Shown here piece by piece: positions 1-15,514 of a stretch of 64,000 nucleotides of DNA (its first letter is position 1; the number at the start of each line of letters is the position of its first letter). Position numbers and translations under genes: made by a program. The notes under the pieces are model-generated. The model was not told the DNA's origin and did no database searches. It saw only the letters and a program-made list of their open reading frames with translations. Location of the stretch: contig NZ_CABDUX010000001.1 of the NCBI RefSeq assembly GCF_901411515.1, forward strand, positions 806,001 to 870,000, in the 5' to 3' direction. Origin of the DNA: Raoultibacter phocaeensis. GTDB lineage: Bacteria > Actinomycetota > Coriobacteriia > Coriobacteriales > Eggerthellaceae.

Positions 1-781
1 AGCTCACAAGCGCCCGTATGCCAAGGGAAAGGTAGTCGAGATCGGACCCGCCTAAGCCGCCCTCGAAAACCGTTCGGTAGTTTACGAACCCGAACGAGCA
101 GCACACGACGAGCAAGATAGCAAGGAAACGCGGATTGTACCGCGCGAGCCCCGTGCCGTTTAGGGCCCGTACAGCTCGTTTCCGCTGCATAGTCTCATTC
201 GCGAGCGCTTCGACAAGCGCCCTGTTGCGCTTCCGCGCGGTGAAAACCGCATAGCAGGCGGCAGAGGCGAGGGGAAGCGAAAGCGCGAAGACCACCGAGG
301 GAAGCGGTTGGAGGAACATGACGAAAAGGATCGCAAGCAGGTTGAACGGCAATGCCGTTGCAATGTGCACAAGAGCGTTCGTGGTCCCCTCGCACGTGAT
401 GAGCCCCCCGACGGTGACAATTCCTGCTCCCTGGTAGATGCCGACCAAGACACTGCCCGCAACAAGCAACGGCACCGAAGCCGCTTGAGCGCCGAGATAC
501 AGAAGGAGCGATCCGCCTGCACCGCAGACAAGCGAATTCAGTGCAAACGCTTTGGCGGTAACGATTCGGGAGCGTAACGGGGCATGCAGCGCAAGCACGC
601 CGAGCACGATCACGCTCACCGCCAGGGAAAGGGCAAGCGGCAAAGCGTCGGCGGGAGCTCCCGCAGCCGAAAACAGAGCGGGGCTGAAAGGAACGACGTC
701 GAACCACGACCAGTAAAACGATGACACGAGCAATGCGATGGGAGATATGTTGCCCGTGAATCTGTCGAGAAGTTTCTCCAT
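1..781 (-). CDS. Multi-TM membrane protein, probable N-terminal part of a membrane LuxR-family regulator (partial)
   Basis: The frame is open from an ATG at 781 down to base 1, so only the first 260 residues are inside the window. The protein starts MEKLLDRFTG and shows about seven hydrophobic segments, near residues 13-35, 45-65, 73-97, 99-125, 133-157, 160-180 and 200-217. A basic linker (TARKRNRALVEAL) follows the sixth. In Eggerthellaceae, proteins with many TM segments and a C-terminal LuxR helix-turn-helix are common, and one complete example lies at 8718-10184. The DNA-binding end would be outside the window, so this assignment is by resemblance. It could instead be a plain transporter. 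A TATAAT box six bases before the ATG suggests a leaderless transcript. Confidence 0.6.
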   Translation of the reverse strand, partial: MEKLLDRFTGNISPIALLVSSFYWSWFDVVPFSPALFSAAGAPADALPLALSLAVSVIVLGVLALHAPLRSRIVTAKAFALNSLVCGAGGSLLLYLGAQAASVPLLVAGSVLVGIYQGAGIVTVGGLITCEGTTNALVHIATALPFNLLAILFVMFLQPLPSVVFALSLPLASAACYAVFTARKRNRALVEALANETMQRKRAVRALNGTGLARYNPRFLAILLVVCCSFGFVNYRTVFEGGLGGSDLDYLSLGIRALVS

Positions 782-787
782 GGGAAG

Positions 788-1057: not shown

Positions 1058-4000
1058 ATGGAAGTGACGACTTCTGCACCGCACGGCACGACGGCAAGAA
1101 CCTCTTCGGTAGCGCGGGGGGCCAACCAGATAAACGACAATCGCGCGATGCGCGAGCGCTTCGGCGAGCTCATGGCTTCGGAAAAACGCTTCGGCGTGCT
1201 TGCGATCGGCATCGACGACTTCGATCGCGTCAACAACCTGTATTCGTACGCCTTCGGAGACGAGGTGCTCGATACGCTCAATTATTTCATTGATATTCGC
1301 ACCCCCCCCCAACGAACGTATAGGTTCGACGGCGATTGCTTCGGCATAATCCTTCCCGATACAAGCGATACCGAAGCACTGCTTTCCCTGTTCAACAGTC
1401 TTCTTGAGTTCACCTCTTCAGGATTCGCCATCGACGGTACTGCCGTTTCGTTCAAAATCTCCGGCGGAATCTGCTTATACCCCGACAACGGAGACAGCGC
1501 CGATGAGCTGTACCGCAATCTGCGCATCGCCCTTTCGGATGCCAAGCGAACAGGCGGATCCTGCACCGTCTGCACGCCATCGCTTTGCGCCGATTCGCGC
1601 AAAGCGCTCTTGCTCATGGAAACGCTCCAACGCTGCATTTCCGCTTCCTTCAGAGGCTTTTCGGCCCGCTTCCAGCCGGTAGCCGACGCGGACACGGGCG
1701 AAATCCACGGCTGCGAAGTGCTCATGCGCTGGGGCGACGAACTGTTCCCCGAGGGGGTAACGCCGTTCGAGTTCATCCCCTATCTCGAAGAAAGCGGTCT
1801 CATCACCGCGGCAACGACATGGCTCATGGATGTCGCCTTCGAACAGGCGCGCCAGTGGATCGACATCGATCCCGCATTCATCATGAACATCAACATATCC
1901 AAATACACGCTCGAAGACCCACTGTTCAGGTTCCACATCGTGAAAGCCGCGAAGAAGCACCGCGTCGATCCCCACCACATCATGCTCGAGCTCACGGAAA
2001 GCGGCATGATAACCGATGCGGAAGGACTCGATGACACGTTCGCCTTCCTGCGCAGCCAGGGGTTCGGCGTAGCGTTCGACGATTTCGGAACCGGGTACGC
2101 TTCGCTCAATCTGTTCCGGGTCATCGCCGCCGACGAGCTCAAGATCGATCGGAGCTTCCTTGAGCGCATCACCTACGACGTGAACGATCAGCGCATCGTC
2201 GCAAGCATCATCAGCCTTTGCCACAGCATGAACTTGAAGGTATGCGTCGAGGGCGTCGAAACGCGCGAGGTACTCGATCTCGTGCGCACCTTGGGAGCCG
2301 ACCTTATCCAGGGCTACCTCTACGACCAGCCGCTTTCCGCGCCCGTCTTCGAGCAGAAATACCTGGCACCCCTCGATGTGCGGGAAGCTGCCGCCGCTTC
2401 GCAACCGTCGATCGTGTACGCCAAAGCGCAGCCCGTGCAGCCGCTGCCACCCAGCGAGCTCATCGACCGCGCATACGCCGGCGTATTCCAGGTGGCCATG
2501 GACGAGAACTTCTCGTTCATTACGTGCAACGAGGGGTATCGCCGTATGCTCGGCTACACCGCGCCCGAAATAGAGGAAAAGCTCGGCAACCGCGCGCTCG
2601 CCATCGTGCACCCCGACGATACCGAGTATGTCAACGAGGAAATACGCCGCCAACTGGGGCAGGGCGATACCGTTCTCATCGAGTTCAGGGTCGTGAGGGC
2701 CGACGGGCAATCGCTGTGGATCACCGGCACGGGCAGTGTCGTGAGGCCGAAGACCGGAACGCCGTATCTCGTCGTCGTCATCATGGACACCGACCGCATC
2801 AAACGCGCGAACCTCGAAACGGAAAAGAACCTCAAAATTGCCGGTCACATTCTCGAAAACGCCCCCATCGCGATCAAGTGCATCGCATACGACAACCAGT
2901 TCACGATCAAGTACCTCTCCCCCGAGTTTCTCACGATCATCGGATATACGCGCGAAGAGGTGCGCGAGCGCTTCGACAACCGTTATGTGAGCTTGGTCCA
3001 CCCCGACGACATTGCGCCCGCCGTCGCGACGGTGCAGGAAAAAGCAAGGCCCGGGCATGCGTTCGACCTCTGCTACCGCGTGCGTGCAGGAAACGGAAGC
3101 ATGCTGTGGCTCAGCACCAAAACCAAATTGTGCGAGGCGAACGAGGATGGATCGAGCGATTTCGTATCGGTCGTCGTCGAGGTCGAAGGCCCCGACGCGC
3201 AAAGCGAAAGCCTGCTTTTGGCAAACCGTTTCCAAACGGCATCTGAGCGCTGGGGCGACATCCTATTCAACCTGTACCTCAAAACGGATACCATCGAGTT
3301 CACCGACAACTACGAGGAAGAGTTCGACGCGCCGCCGAAACACTCTCTTCCCGAGCAATTGGCGCTTTCCCCCGCCTCGGACAGAACGGCTGTTGCAGAG
3401 GCCATTGAAGAGGCAAAACGCGGAATCGTGCCTGCACCGCTCGAGATCCGCCTTTCCCCGCGCGACGACGGCGAGTACGTTTGGTGCGCCCTGTCGCTCA
3501 ACTGCGCCGAAACATCCGAAGGCGAGCCCTCGACTATTTTCGGTCGACTGCGAAACGTCGATTCGGAAAAGCGCAAGCGCGACGAGCTCGTACACGAATC
3601 GCAATCGGATCCGCTGTGCGACGTATACAACAAGATCACCATCGAGCGAAAGATCCAGGAGGTGCTCGACAACGCACAACCCGACGCGTGCTTTGCGTTC
3701 GCGGTAATCGACATCGACAACTTCAAAACCGTCAACGATACCGCAGGCCATCTTACGGGAGATCAGATGCTCGTGTTTGTTGCCGAGGTTCTGAAAAGCT
3801 CGGTCTCCGACGAAGGCTTGGTCGGACGCATTGGCGGCGACGAATTCGTCGTGCTGCAGCCATGCGAGGCCGCGGTAGGGGATGCCCTCGCGTTCGGAAC
3901 GGGCATCATCGAGCGGATCGATCGGACATGCTCTTCGGAAGAAAGCGATGTCACCCTGCAAACAAGCGCGGGCGTCGCGTGCTTCCCCGACGACGGTACG

Positions 4001-11351: not shown

Positions 11352-13100
11352 GTGAACAGCACCAAAATGAACAGGCGTCAGTTCGTGTCCATCGCGGGTA
11401 TCGGCGCAGGCGCTCTTGCAGCTATGGGCCTTATGGGGTGTCAAGCGCCGAAAGCGCAGGCAGGCAACGAATCGAACGCCAAGGAGGAGTCTGCTTCCTG
11501 GTTGGGCGAGGCTCCTGAGATCACCGAAGAGCAGATTGCGCGAACCGAATCCACCGATCTGCTGATCGTGGGCGCAGGCAATGCCGGCATGGTGGCCGCA
11601 GCGACCGCTGCCGATTTGGGCATGAACTTCAAGCTGTGCGACAAGGCGGGCGCCGTGCAGGCAACCCGTCACTTCGCGGGCGCAATCGACAGCAAGTGGC
11701 AGAAAGAAGCCGGCGTTGAAACCGACAAGGGCAAACTGCTGAACGAGTTGACCCGCTACGCTTCGGGCAAATGCTCCCAGGACGTATGGAAGGTTTGGAT
11801 CGATGAGAGCGGCGAGACGTTCGAGTACGTGCATGACATCATGGCGGCTGCCGGTATGGATATATACTTGGATACGGACGGCTACGATCACCCGACCGGC
11901 GGCACTGATTACTATATGCCGCCCCAACAGCACATGTGGTATCTCCCTGACGTTGCCGAAGCCGCTCCCCCCGCCCTTTGGGGCAATGCTTCCGCGGAGG
12001 CCGGATTCTCCCGCAACAAAGTCTTGGCAGACTACATTGCATCAAAGGGCAACGAGATTGCGTTCGGCTATACGCTGGCGAAGCTCGTTCGCGAAGAAGG
12101 CGGTCGCGTTACCGGTGCGGTCTTCGAAACCCGTGACGGGTATGTTCAGGTGAACGCAACCAAGGGCGTCCTCCTTGCCACCGGCGGTTATGCAGCGAAC
12201 CCGGTGATGCTCGAAGCGCTTTCCCCTGCCGTCTTGGAATCCTGCACCGCTATCGACAAGATGCCGAACTGCACCGGGGATGGCATCAAAGCGGGCATCT
12301 GGGCTGGCGCTCGGATGGATGCAGAATCTGCGCCGATGATCTTCGACCGCGGTGCCGTTCTTCCCGGCGTGGATTGCGGTCTTGTGGGCGAGGGCATGGA
12401 TGCAGACTTCCCCAGCGTCTGCTCGGAAAATGTTCTGGGCAGCTTGCCTTTCCTCAAAATCAATCGCCACGGCAAGCGTTTCTTCAACGAGTCCGCTCCG
12501 TATGATTGGTGCGCCAATGCTTCGGCAAACCAACCAGGCGGCGTGTGGTGTTCCGTCTTCGATGCCAACATCGCTGCCGACGTTGCACGATTCCAGGTTG
12601 TCGGTTGCGCGAAAATCGCCTCGCAGTTGCTGCAATCCGCCTCCCCGGAAGAAGCCGTCAGCGCGTTTCCGGGTGGCCAGCAGCTGCTCGAGCAGGGAGC
12701 CTTCTTCAAGGCCGACACCCTCGAATAGCTGGCTGATCTCCTTGAGGTGCCCAAAGATTCCTTTCTTGCCACAGTCAACCGCTATAACGAGCTCTACGAC
12801 AAGCAGGACGACGAGGACTATGGCAAAGAGGCTTTCCGCCTTTCGGGAATCCATACGCCTCCGTTCTATGGCTGTTGGTTCGGCGGCTCCATTCTCACCA
12901 CGCTTGACGGTTTGAAAATCAACGCGGATATGCAGGTTCTCGACAAGAAGATGGAGCCTATTGCCGGCCTGTATGCTGCAGGCGATTGCAGCGGCAGCAT
13001 GTTCTCGGGCAACTATCCCGAGTACCTCGTCGGTTGCGCAGTCGGCCGCACCATGACCCAGGGCCGTCACGCTGTTCGCTACATCAACGAGAACGAGTAA
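11352..13100 (+). pseudogene. Flavocytochrome-type FAD reductase interrupted by an in-frame amber codon
   Basis: The gene encodes a fumarate/urocanate-reductase-like flavoprotein (FAD_binding_2 family) of about 580 codons. The GTG at 11352 follows a strong AGGAGG. The N-terminus is a Tat-type signal with NRRQF and a possible lipobox (GLMGC). The FAD Rossmann motif is LLIVGAGNAGMVAAATAADL. Codon 459 is TAG (12726-12728). The same frame then continues with a normal family C-terminus (VPKDSFLATVNRYNELYDK, then GLYAAGDCSGSMFSGNYPEY), which completes the FAD site. The stop removes about 125 essential residues, so the product should be inactive unless the amber codon is read through. A single GAG-to-TAG change would explain it. 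The family acts on small unsaturated acceptors in anaerobic respiration; the substrate here is unknown. Confidence 0.85.
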
Positions 13101-13131
13101 TCCCAAGCATTGCGTACGCTGGAAGCCACAT

Positions 13132-13168
13132 GAAGGCGGGACCGATTCGGTTCCGCCTTCTTTTGCGT
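13132..13168 (+). terminator. Rho-independent terminator of the flavin reductase gene
   Basis: GAAGGCGG pairs with CCGCCTTC around a short loop that holds CCGATTCGG, followed by TTTTG. It starts 32 bases after the stop codon of the flavin reductase. Confidence 0.75.
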
Positions 13169-13375
13169 GTCGAACGCGTGTGCGCTTACAGTTAGTAAAA
13201 GCCTTGAACGCTGGAAGGTGAATCATGCTGGCTACAAGGGAGTTATGCTTCTTGCAACCGACAAGGTAACTCGATAGGAAACGGGCAGTCGGCCGCATGA
13301 CCAGCCTTGCGCTCTATCACTTCATAGGGGGACGCCCTTCATGCGGTACCCGAATCAACGATTGAGGCCGCCGAA
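13169..13375. other. Non-coding spacer with no recognised content
   Basis: No reading frame here resembles a known protein. The minus-strand frame at 13317-13844 runs through a palindromic element and a tRNA fragment, so it is not a gene. Confidence 0.6.
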
Positions 13376-13558
13376 AAGCCCAAAAAGTCAAGTCGTGAAG
13401 CGTCCAGCCGCCTTTTCCGACACGTTTCGGGCAGCACGGGGCTGCTGGCTTGCAAGCTGTCGAACTCGCAAGCCGCTGAACTGGAGCTTTTCGAAATACC
13501 AAATCGACGTGAAAAGGTAATGCAGTACATAGCACTTCACAGCTCGACTTTTTGGGAT
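13376..13558. repeat. Palindromic element, type F, copy C (183 bp)
   Basis: Imperfect terminal inverted repeats of about 25 bases (13376-13400 and 13535-13558) enclose 134 bases. The same design occurs at 29894-30078 and 46966-47150. Shared parts are AAGCCCAAAAA at one end, GTGAAG at the inner arm edge, and GGTAATG before the far arm. In this copy the arm centre is AGTC rather than CCGCC, and both arms have changed together. Confidence 0.65.
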
Positions 13559-13763
13559 TTGGACCCCGTTCGCCGCCAAGTTGGCGGGAAGGGACCGCTT
13601 TCGGGCCTCGAACGGCGCTTTCTCGTCGAGGTTCGCGCATCAACGGTTCGGGCCAGGTTCGAGTTCCACTTCCGACCTCGGGGCGTCCTATAAACCCAAT
13701 CGGAGCAAAAACCGGCAACTTGGCAATGGCTTCCAGTTTCCCTAAATTGTGGGTGTTCGACAT

Positions 13764-13830
13764 GAAAACAGGCCCAGAAGAAACCTGCATGCTGTACATG
13801 GTGGTCGGGAGGACTTGAACCCTCGGCATG
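13764..13830 (-). repeat. Duplicated tRNA-Phe 3' end with its terminator (possible attachment site)
   Basis: This stretch matches 14514-14583 over the terminator stem (GAAAACAGGCCC, then CCTGCATG), the TGGTGGTCGG acceptor end and the T-arm (GACTTGAACCCTCGGCA). It lacks the 5' half of the tRNA, so it cannot be a working gene. The two copies are 750 bp apart and flank the nuclease gene at 14012-14401. That is the pattern left by site-specific insertion at a tRNA 3' end. Confidence 0.6.
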
Positions 13831-13945
13831 TCTCCCCTGATCAAGAAGCTATATCACGATTTGGGAAGCTGCGTACTGCTAAAGGAAGCTCCGAACCGTG
13901 AATTTGGCTATAGTTTGTCCACACTCAACTTGTCAGCCGCAATGC

Positions 13946-13983
13946 AAAACGCCCGAGGGAGGTAACTGCGTACCGTTCGGGCG
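13946..13983 (-). terminator. Rho-independent terminator of the small nuclease gene
   Basis: On the minus strand CGCCCGA pairs with TCGGGCG, with an inner GGTA/TACC pair, followed by TTTT. It lies about 30 bases after the stop codon at 14012. Confidence 0.7.
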
Positions 13984-14011
13984 CTTAGCATCTATCACTA
14001 TACGGGGCGCA

Positions 14012-14401
14012 TCACTTTATGTCAATGACAGCCCCGCGACGGTTCACGAAAAGCACGTGCACCACTCCGTCTATCTCCGATGCGTGCTTGCGAAGCTCGC
14101 GCTCCACCGCCGCATCGGGAACGCCCTTCATGCGACGGGAGTCGAGTATGATGCATCCCGACTGCCATCGGGCGCGCTTCAGGTTGCGCTCGACGGCCTT
14201 GAGACTCGATGCCGTCGGCGACTTCATCTCCCACTGCTTCCCGTTGATCAGCACGTCGGCCGAAGTCGCATACAGCGCGTCGCTCTTCCTGACGAACTCC
14301 ACGTCGTACCCGGCGCGAGCGATGGCCTGAGCCGTCTTATGCTCGTGAGGCCACACGTTGGCGTCGCCAGGGACGATGATCTTTCCAATTTTCTTAGGCA
14401 T
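14012..14401 (-). CDS. Small PD-(D/E)XK-like nuclease, related to CdiA C-terminal toxin domains
   Basis: This 129-residue protein starts MPKKIGKIIVPGDANVWPHE at the ATG at 14401; an ATG three codons upstream is possible. The core has an acidic residue then WEMK: SADVLINGKQWEMKSP, near residues 48-63. This fits a D-(D/E)xK nuclease site. The spacing, and the LKRARWQSGCIILDSRR strand after it, resemble the tRNase domain found at the C-terminus of some CdiA toxins and in free-standing proteins of Firmicutes and Actinobacteria. No immunity gene is recognised next to it. It has its own terminator and lies between tRNA-Phe and a tRNA-Phe fragment, so it may be cargo of a small inserted element. The family call is moderate. 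Confidence 0.6.
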   Translation of the reverse strand: MPKKIGKIIVPGDANVWPHEHKTAQAIARAGYDVEFVRKSDALYATSADVLINGKQWEMKSPTASSLKAVERNLKRARWQSGCIILDSRRMKGVPDAAVERELRKHASEIDGVVHVLFVNRRGAVIDIK

Positions 14402-14514
14402 AGGATGCATTGTACTCTGCTTTGCACGCGCTAATGCCTGCTGATGGCAATTCTTTTCGAAACGCATTCACGGCACGTTTTGCCTATAAGCCAAGTGTAA
14501 CGAAGTCCGAAACG

Positions 14515-14538
14515 AAAACAGGCCCCCGTAGGAGCCTG
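14515..14538 (-). terminator. Rho-independent terminator of tRNA-Phe
   Basis: On the minus strand CAGGCTCC pairs with GGGGCCTG around TACG, followed by TTTT. It starts about 12 bases after the encoded CCA of the tRNA. Confidence 0.8.
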
Positions 14539-14549
14539 CATGGTGTAAA

Positions 14550-14625
14550 TGGTGGTCGGAGGGGGACTTGAACCCTCGGCACGCGGATTTTCAGTCCGCT
14601 GCTCTACCAACTGAGCTACCCGACC
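14550..14625 (-). tRNA. tRNA-Phe (anticodon GAA)
   Basis: The 76-base gene folds as a full cloverleaf. The acceptor stem GGTCGGG pairs with TCCGACC, the D-arm is AGCTCAGTTGGTAGAGC, the anticodon stem is GCGGA/TCCGC with loop CTGAAAA, and the T-arm holds GGTTCAAGT. The 3' CCA is encoded. A truncated copy of the 3' half is found at 13764-13830. Confidence 0.97.
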
Positions 14626-14914
14626 ATGTACGTTCCCGAACCTGCTGTTCGAGACGCGGGGCATTATTTTACCTGTACGATGCAGCGCGGTCAAGTTTTA
14701 TTCTGCATCCGATCGGATATCCGCAGCACGCACCGATCGATGCGCAATTTGTGGGCCGCAGCAGTCGCACTCGGCGGTTTAGCGTGGCGGTCGAAGATCG
14801 GCAGCTGTCGGCGGCTACTGCGACGGGCGGCAGTCGGCGGCTGGCAGCTACTGTGGCGACGGGCACCCGGATAACTGGCACCCGACGACAACTTGCGGCG
14901 CATAGCCGAGTCGG

Positions 14915-15514
14915 CTACTGCGTCTTCTTCTCTACCAGACCGTTGAGGCTTTCGGCTCCCGTGGGCGATTCGAAGTACGTCACTTCAAGCACCGCATTTA
15001 CATTCGTCACGGTACCGTCGGCCGTCATGGTCGCATCGAACGAGAAGTTGGTCACGTCACAGCGATACGCGCCGTTCTGCAATCTGTCCACAATGCCGAG
15101 CGCTTCTGCGTACGTGGGCACCGAAAACGTGATGTTCACAGGCCGACGTATCGTAGTGCCGTCCAGCTCGGGTGTTGAGAACTTCAGATCGTAGGATGTC
15201 GTGAACCTCAAGATGCCGTTCAGTTCATCGAGTTCGTTGCGCAGGTTGTCGTAGACGGCAACCTCGGGAAGGTTGGCAAGCGTGCCGAGCTCGTCAAGCT
15301 CGTGCTGCATCTTCTCGCGACCTTGTGCAAGTATCTTCTGCACTTCGATTTGGGTCTGCACGTCTTCGATAGCCGTCGCATTCGCCGCACGCGTCTCGGC
15401 CACGTTGCGGACAACCAAGAAATAATACGCTGCCACCAGAAGTACGACAACCAGTGTAAGGATGAGGGCCTTTTCGCGCGTGCTGAACGAACGGCTCAGG
15501 ATGCTTTTATTCAT
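14915..15514 (-). CDS. PilO-like type IV pilus assembly protein
   Basis: The 199-residue protein has a short cytoplasmic N-terminus, one TM segment (residues 16-35, ALILTLVVVLLVAAYYFLVV), a coiled-coil stretch (36-80) and a small C-terminal α/β domain. This is the PilO layout of the PilMNO inner-membrane platform that links the assembly motor to the growing pilus. The identification rests on layout and on being directly after the PilN-like gene, with which it overlaps by 8 bases. It is the last gene of the pilus operon. Confidence 0.75.
   Translation of the reverse strand: MNKSILSRSFSTREKALILTLVVVLLVAAYYFLVVRNVAETRAANATAIEDVQTQIEVQKILAQGREKMQHELDELGTLANLPEVAVYDNLRNELDELNGILRFTTSYDLKFSTPELDGTTIRRPVNITFSVPTYAEALGIVDRLQNGAYRCDVTNFSFDATMTADGTVTNVNAVLEVTYFESPTGAESLNGLVEKKTQ

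Follow-up and report, generated by a model that had tools for sequence, protein, structure and literature searches.

We propose that the segment between a tRNA-Phe gene and a decayed copy of its 3' end holds a toxin-antitoxin module with an RNA antitoxin, which would resemble type III systems but with reversed gene order and a different toxin fold; our confidence in this reading is slightly better than even. The segment lies in what we call the window, the whole 64-kb stretch of DNA that was analysed. According to this proposal, the toxin would be a small PD-(D/E)XK nuclease of the same tRNase type as CdiA-CT(1026b), translated from a leaderless mRNA, and the antitoxin would be a hairpin RNA of roughly 47 nt, expressed from its own sigma70-type promoter with the -35 box in the last codons of the nuclease gene. 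The hairpin RNA would bind and block the nuclease, perhaps by imitating a tRNA arm and thus acting as a pseudo-substrate. From the observations described below we infer a nuclease that is toxic and cleaves tRNA, and a hairpin RNA that is transcribed and inhibits this nuclease. An antidote is the simplest reading of the RNA, because the nuclease is of a toxin type, the cassettes appear to share no partner gene, the RNA gene is constant and has a promoter held by codon choice, and it is the nuclease, not the hairpin, that has been lost.

The nuclease gene and its product

The nuclease gene is located on the reverse strand at 14012-14401 and encodes a protein of 129 amino acids. An alternative start at 14467 was set aside in favour of 14401, which is the likely start because both the homology to related genes and the conserved promoter begin there. 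The protein matched the Pfam family CdiA_C (PF18451) with an E-value of 4.5e-10 and 40.0 bits (cut-off 26.6), which places it in this domain family, and CdiA_C was the only family above the Pfam cut-off in all seven cassette nucleases scanned. The earlier note had described the product as a D-ExK nuclease. This description was borne out, since D49, E58 and K60 are the same in all 42 aligned proteins; in total, there are ten such invariant positions, including E20, D49, E58, K60, D87 and R90. An AF2 model of the window nuclease (pLDDT 88.6) was compared with known structures by Foldseek. The sole match at E ≤ 0.001, among the best 50 of 850 matches at E ≤ 10, was 4G6V, the CdiA-CT of B. pseudomallei 1026b with a PD-(D/E)XK fold (E 3.2e-7, TM 0.74), and a profile search of PDB sequences again led to 4G6V (E 0.0012).

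In the review PMC9086364, the CdiA-CT of strain 1026b is described as cutting tRNA-Ala at the acceptor stem with an active site formed by E187, D214, D223 and K242, and other PD-(D/E)XK CdiA toxins (TA271, YPIII) are described as DNases. Since the 4G6V toxin cuts tRNA-Ala but TA271 and YPIII are DNases, tRNase would be the likeliest activity of the window nuclease, although not a certain one. The window protein shares with the CdiA-CT of 1026b the fold as well as the acidic residues and the lysine of the PD-(D/E)XK site, but it is encoded by a stand-alone gene with no delivery protein and no shared adjacent immunity gene. A contact-dependent inhibition (CDI) system comprises a large CdiA exoprotein, CdiB and an adjacent CdiI. 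According to PMC9086364, this fold is paired with immunity proteins in such systems. In the window, by contrast, the 129-aa gene stands alone, and the DNA homology between cassettes ends at the hairpin. The nuclease belongs to the CdiA_C domain family but not to a CDI system.

The nuclease gene is under purifying selection. pN was lower than pS in all nine gene pairs computed (of ten chosen), and in the seven pairs with a finite dS the values ranged from 0.138 to 1.72, compared to dN values of 0.013 to 0.183. For the nuclease genes of the window and of locus L047, dN was 0.104 and dS 0.469.

An origin as phage or plasmid cargo was considered and rejected. In viral contigs searched with the nuclease protein as a single query a relative was not found, the phage search yielded only two MuF-type head proteins (four records) with a related stretch, and the plasmid search four weak Leptolyngbya records. 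In PHROGs, the nuclease matched a head maturation protease family (E 5.5e-9). The resemblance to the MuF polymorphic toxins of temperate phages concerns a stretch in the head proteins of MalagasyRose (E 1e-5, annotated as a MuF-like fusion) and TPA4 (E 5e-7). There it is part of a head protein, whereas in the window it forms a free gene accompanied by a hairpin RNA.

The -10 box of the nuclease promoter (TACAAT, 14409-14414, reverse strand) lies 7 nt before the start codon. A TATAAT-like box (at least 5 of 6 positions) ending 6-8 nt before the ATG was present in 34 of 42 nuclease genes, compared to 11 of 190 control ORFs, and Shine-Dalgarno-like sequences were rarer than in the controls (5/42 versus 45/190). 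Because the TATAAT-like box lies so close to the ATG and Shine-Dalgarno-like sequences are scarce, the nuclease mRNA is predicted to be leaderless.

A hairpin RNA gene with a promoter in the nuclease codons

The hairpin behind the nuclease gene had been taken in the earlier note for the terminator of that gene. It is more plausibly interpreted as a small RNA gene under a sigma70-type promoter of its own. The predicted gene, about 47 nt long, is located at 13943-13990 on the reverse strand and consists of a stem, an asymmetric internal loop, an inner stem and a T-rich end. The hairpin model R1, trained on 42 sequences including the window's own hairpin, detected it in the window with an E-value of 6.5e-14; in the window genome, R1 gave one strong match (1.2e-10), the next best having an E-value of 0.008. 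A2 and R1 comprise 42 of the 48 family hairpins and omit those of L059, L073 and L086 (near copies) and of L092-L094 (divergent). In the hairpin alignment (42 sequences, 41 of them distinct), 96.9% of the cells were paired and covariation was strong, with changes on both sides in 9 of 14 pairs, a value reached by none of 500 shuffles. The sequences of the internal loop and of the inner stem are conserved. A known Rfam family was rejected as an identity for the hairpin: when positions 13000-15000 of the window and ten loci were searched, it matched no Rfam 15 family at or above the gathering score, nor at lax E-values.

The -35 box of the RNA promoter (TTGACA, 14020-14025) lies within the last codons of the nuclease gene and is separated by a spacer of 17 nt from the -10 box (TATAGT, 13997-14002; both on the reverse strand), from which the transcription start of the hairpin was deduced. 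At the 48 loci, the best-scoring promoter pair included an exact TTGACA in 27 cases and none in 21, with spacers of 16-18 nt and the -10 box mostly 8-10 nt before the stem. The mean promoter score was 9.07, compared to 5.23 for 1960 random positions under the same scoring.

In the window nuclease gene, the codons for Ile-Asp-Ile at the C-terminus contain the TTGACA sequence. We analysed the codon usage at this site in 23 genes that encode Ile/Val/Leu-Asp-Ile/Met near the C-terminus and have no internal stop. In these related and hence not independent genes, the codon before the C-terminal Asp ended in T in 23/23 cases, compared to 89/448 of the remaining Ile/Val codons of these genes (p 7e-16), and GAC encoded the Asp itself in 23/23 cases, compared to 79/139 elsewhere (p 8e-6). 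As the codon choice is biased in this way, the TTGACA box is not a by-product of the protein sequence: the RNA promoter is held by the codon choice of the nuclease gene.

These features bear on the notion that the hairpin merely terminates transcription of the nuclease gene and has persisted in relics by chance. With its GC-rich stem, the T residues behind it and its position shortly past the stop codon, it does look like such a terminator, but the promoter between gene and hairpin and its retention by codon choice, the conserved sequences of internal loop and inner stem, and the solo copies without the gene (see below) make this explanation rather improbable.

The distances between hairpins and between proteins were correlated in 38 pairs (Mantel r 0.54, not reached by any of 2000 permutations), as expected for a pair that is inherited together. 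A small RNA adjoining a toxin-like gene is also reminiscent of type I modules, in which the RNA would silence the nuclease mRNA via base pairing. However, the cognate RNA:mRNA duplexes, calculated with the first ~88 nt, were stronger than the non-cognate ones in just 17 of 38 cases (mean difference +0.11 kcal/mol), which leaves antisense pairing unsupported, and the mRNA is predicted to be leaderless. We therefore attach hardly any weight to this alternative.

Occurrence of the cassette in the family

Relatives of the nuclease were detected at E ≤ 0.001 in 37 of 138 genomes of the family Eggerthellaceae. For the analysis of individual loci we used those 49 with a tblastn E-value ≤ 1e-10 among 53 (the window region and L047-L098), some of which are pseudogenes. 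At 48 of the 49, the nuclease gene and a hairpin of related sequence formed a pair of ~480 bp, here called the cassette, with the hairpin mostly some 20-30 nt past the nuclease stop codon. The hairpins of L066, L072, L073, L092 and L094 were placed by hand, since the automatic finder took another stem. The single locus without a good hairpin, L088, carries a decayed gene, and none of the 49 loci contained an intact nuclease gene without a hairpin.

The boundaries of the conserved unit were deduced from the 60 best pairs listed, i.e., the best of those covering the gene. DNA homology began at position -17 of the ATG or later in 54 of these pairs and in most of them stopped 60-80 nt past the nuclease stop codon; six close pairs share more sequence upstream. 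The neighbouring ORFs, inspected by eye among those listed, differ between cassettes, and by this comparison there appears to be no partner gene common to them.

At L064, L065 and L103, the cassette or hairpin is directly preceded by an ORF whose end resembles that of a small XRE-type regulator (by eye), and L064 and L065 are situated near tRNA-Thr. A TATAGG...AAACG-like motif recurs 60-100 nt before several cassettes and was also seen after tRNA-Phe in L147 (G108), where there is no cassette (both by eye).

The tRNA-Phe locus and the insertion of the cassette

The complete tRNA-Phe gene (anticodon GAA) was located at 14550-14625 on the reverse strand by ARAGORN and with Rfam RF00005 (66.6 bits). 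The upstream copy of the repeat, comprising tRNA-Phe positions 45-76 and the terminator, covers 14505-14581, and the decayed downstream copy of the tRNA-Phe 3' end and terminator covers 13755-13828 (both reverse strand), with only about 0.75 kb from repeat to repeat. The two copies are identical in 64 of 77 alignment columns (83%). Their alignment score was 42, whereas none of 300 first-order Markov resamples drawn from the downstream region exceeded 18, which rules out a chance origin. As the earlier note had stated, the nuclease gene sits between the two copies. The repeat and its terminator, which it had described as a 67-bp direct repeat of the tRNA 3' half, are real, but the repeat is degenerate rather than an exact 67 bp and extends over the T-arm and the acceptor end, not over the whole 3' half. 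The reported lack of an integrase was also confirmed for the 64-kb window with respect to tyrosine integrases (PF00589); a search of the genome gave six matches, all of them outside the window.

A tRNA-Phe match was present in all 137 family genomes searched, and 20 of these loci were fetched and read. In the congeneric genome G001, the gene order is kept on both sides and an equivalent decayed tRNA-Phe 3' end is present, located at +1455..1560 from the tRNA compared to +677..784 in the window (76.9% identity over 108 bp). The DNA between tRNA-Phe and the decayed end of G001 did not align with that of the window, and an R1 hairpin was not found in the slot of this genome. G107 carries a cassette at tRNA-Phe that is 84% identical, and a repeat was not detected there. 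In G090, tRNA-Phe is accompanied only by the hairpin (R1 E 5.6e-8) and the final codons of the nuclease gene, TTGACA box included, with a run of G in place of the -10 box; because the -10 box is lost in this run, the hairpin copy may be dead or misassembled. Among the 20 loci, three genomes have a second tRNA-Phe 3' end (45-50 nt) at a distance of 3-7 kb, and in two genomes a 413-aa ORF, by eye a putative integrase, adjoins tRNA-Phe.

Since G001, G107, G090 and other loci differ at this position, the comparison supports the view of tRNA-Phe as a tRNA-bounded slot, the contents of which differ between species. The footprint of tRNA-targeted insertion postulated in the earlier note is thereby supported, G001 having the same decayed end with other DNA in between. 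We rejected the alternative of an old, fixed tRNA duplication: the duplicated end predates the split from G001, yet the contents vary, and the arrangement is not fixed in the relatives read. Of the idea that the locus is a remnant island or a minimal cargo unit, the tRNA-bounded slot remains; the cargo is a two-gene cassette that recurs elsewhere, mostly away from tRNA genes.

Beyond the tRNA fragment, about 40 nt at 13306-13345 (reverse strand) resemble the interior of a nuclease gene (82.5% identity to L149, E 1e-4) and include 18 bp that are 94% identical to the window's own nuclease gene and read RMKGVP. This stretch may be what is left of a second cassette that has decayed.

A tRNA or tRNA fragment was located within 600 bp of 13 of the 49 cassettes, compared to 8 of 103 control gaps (Fisher p 0.0026, without correction for relatedness), and for complete tRNAs only the numbers were 8/49 and 5/103 (p 0.023, likewise uncorrected). 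The remaining 36 cassettes had no tRNA or fragment within this distance. The modest excess fits cargo of tRNA-targeted elements. The fragments begin at tRNA positions 29, 33, 40, 45 and 56, which we take to be reminiscent of integrase attachment sites. Duplicated 3' ends of genes lie on both sides of the cassette in the window, in L055/L059 (tRNA-Asp), in L070 (tRNA-Leu) and in L067 (ychF by eye). With these tRNA-end repeats, the cassette could be mere cargo of lost integrative elements.

The repeat of L070 (G027:C20) is a direct repeat of 1131 bp that starts from the tRNA-Leu 3' end, flanks the cassette and is 99.9% identical; it represents either a very recent duplication or an assembly effect. 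In L067 (G097:C2), the cassette is located after the ychF 3' end (by eye) and is followed by a decayed ychF end, and in L106 (G004:C1) a solo hairpin lies after the 3' end of ychF (by eye).

The flanking 3' ends in the window, L055/L059, L070 and L067 and the tRNA association of 13 of 49 cassettes versus 8 of 103 control gaps could also be explained by a homing-type cassette. In this case the nuclease would cleave the DNA of conserved genes at their 3' ends, the cassette would be copied in and the displaced end would be left as a repeat, the hairpin serving as an end or as an immunity mark. However, most cassettes are without such a repeat and have nothing in common beyond the cassette, the decayed tRNA end of the window is also present in G001 where the cassette is absent, the fold match is a tRNase, and the start points of the tRNA fragments presumably recall integrase attachment sites. 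Homing is therefore unlikely. Another explanation is an ordinary remnant of an integrative island, in which the nuclease would be unremarkable cargo with no functional link to the hairpin. This would agree with the tRNA-end repeats, the polymorphic slot and the lack of a tyrosine integrase in the window, but the gene-hairpin pair is constant across many different contexts, which makes this explanation very unlikely.

Islands that are bounded by tRNA ends and have no integrase are known as cis-mobilisable elements. The tRNA-Phe slot is similar to tRNA-bounded islands in being flanked by direct repeats of the tRNA 3' end, in having contents that differ between relatives, and in the lack of a tyrosine integrase. 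It differs from them in its size of about 0.75 kb only and in that the cassette lives away from tRNA genes too, and from a tRNA-integrated island with its own integrase in that PF00589 found no match in the window.

Hairpins without a nuclease gene

R1 was used to scan 137 of the 138 genomes of the nuclease search, with stricter filters, and gave matches at E ≤ 0.01 in 75 of them. Of the 82 matches at E ≤ 1e-6, 42 were located within 700 bp of a nuclease gene and 40 were not. Based on a nuclease list of 47 of 59 rows (the 12 weakest were left out), 22 solo hairpins were present in 18 genomes without a listed nuclease. G066 and G067 have weak nuclease rows, G067 with a profile match at 2e-12, and without these two genomes 20 solo hairpins in 16 genomes remained. 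At least five of the 16 (G001, G004, G008, G096, G112) have no match to the nuclease profile.

We fetched 40 loci (L101-L140), of which 35 were solo at E ≤ 1e-6 and five were weaker or near a nuclease fragment. At these 40 loci, the -10 score averaged 4.1 of 6 (intact cassettes 4.4, random 2.5) and the -35 score 3.9 of 6 (intact 5.0, random 3.0), i.e., the -10 box is better kept than the -35 box. For 19 solo loci a related intact cassette served as reference, and in 14 of them the alignment extended into the final codons of the nuclease gene. In L114, positions -45 to +365 of the gene, present in L059, are missing between flanks that are 92% and 99% identical, and L126 lacks the gene present in L048, with an RNA side that is 99% identical and a non-aligning replacement of 360 bp. 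Of the loci near tRNA-Thr, L064 and L065 have an open nuclease gene, and L112 and L119 yielded only the hairpin. The nuclease has thus been lost repeatedly with the hairpin retained. Because the promoter lies inside the toxin codons, a deletion of the toxin may leave the putative antidote functional.

The good structure of the solo hairpins is partly a result of selection, because they were found by the hairpin model itself. Some copies are possibly relics, since the -35 boxes are partly decayed and the -10 box of G090 is lost. The solo hairpins fit an antidote but also neutral relics. Tandem hairpins with two or three copies were observed in L184, L239, L118, L121 and L074 (three each in L184 and L239), and L109 (G101:C36) contains two hairpins in opposite orientation about 90 bp apart.

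The solo copies are also relevant for the idea of a defence effector, in which the small RNA would activate or guide the nuclease rather than inhibit it. A nuclease with a fixed small RNA in distant bacteria would be compatible with this function, as would a weak match of the L084 nuclease to the RT-associated PDDEXK model of PADLOC (E 7.4e-4). On the other hand, the hairpin is without a variable guide part, solo hairpins lacking the nuclease would be useless, and four of the five nucleases tested, including that of the window, had no PADLOC match. We consider a role in defence quite improbable.

Relatives outside the family

A contig scan revealed 164 relatives of the nuclease, of which 80 were kept. 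Their titles named Saccharibacteria, Nomurabacteria, Atopobiaceae, Rickettsiales, Elusimicrobia, Lachnospiraceae, Propionibacteriaceae, Lactococcus termiticola and Mycetocola, among others. Many of the 80 are metagenome bins, some of them titled from ruminant guts, and because several hosts are such bins, the phylum labels of single loci may be wrong. R1 was applied to 54 of the 80 loci; the other 26 were left out as matching genomes already used, as judged by eye. Near copies among the 54 are L208/L210 and L231/L233.

Although R1 was built from Coriobacteriia, it detected at E ≤ 0.05 a hairpin just after the nuclease gene in 27 of these 54 loci outside the training set, among them 12 of 20 from Saccharibacteria and 2 of 3 from Nomurabacteria. 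R1 matched elsewhere at three further places in the 54 loci; in L211 the hairpin is located about 105 nt before the nuclease gene. An R1 match just after the nuclease was absent in the other 27 of the 54 loci, many of which have another hairpin by eye; in L223 and L224 no hairpin was seen by eye. At the Rickettsiales, Endomicrobia and Lactococcus loci, hairpins of other types occupy the position after the nuclease (by eye). In L226, L229 and L235-L237, titled Rickettsiales and Endomicrobia, a different hairpin follows the nuclease and carries the related core CCACTGCTGGATAGCGGAG or a version with one or two letters changed (by eye).

Comparison with type III systems

In type III systems, the RNA antitoxin is encoded upstream of the toxin under a single promoter with a terminator in between, as described in PMC5086642. 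Like ToxIN, CptIN and TenpIN, the cassette combines a small nuclease-type protein gene with a small structured RNA, the RNA occurs in tandem at some loci, and it also exists where the protein gene is absent, as an antitoxin would be expected to do. In contrast to these systems, the RNA of the cassette follows the gene and has its own -35 and -10 boxes, the promoter lying within the codons of the gene. Further differences are that the hairpin is mostly single, as in the window, that the mRNA is predicted to be leaderless, and that the putative toxin has a PD-(D/E)XK CdiA_C fold rather than belonging to ToxN, CptN or TenpN, with no other Pfam family above the cut-off.

The novelty of the cassette was assessed against Rfam 15, Pfam, PHROGs, NCBIfam, PADLOC and the open-licence literature in PubMed Central. 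Titles and abstract starts of the matches listed in the latter contained no CdiA_C nuclease paired with an RNA. PMC8040213 deals with structured RNAs that adjoin ToxN, and the word CdiA is absent from its accessible part; the hairpin may be an unrecognised entry in the supplements of that study.

Implications

In its widest form, our proposal is that of a new class of modules, in which a leaderless CdiA-type tRNase would be combined with an antidote RNA of ~47 nt whose promoter lies in the toxin codons. Such modules would occur in Coriobacteriia, Saccharibacteria and further distant bacteria, and the solo RNAs would represent inherited immunity. We offer this wider claim tentatively, with a confidence that falls a little short of even.

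The comparison of related loci shows tRNA-Phe as a slot with exchanged contents. If the proposal is true, it would add a family of RNA-controlled toxins with a fold that is otherwise paired with immunity proteins in CDI, and Saccharibacteria would gain an RNA-toxin pair to test. Whether a 47-nt hairpin can neutralise a tRNase would become directly testable. The design would be a simple one, in which loss of the toxin spares the antidote, and it would account for the many solo hairpins in the genomes of Eggerthellaceae.
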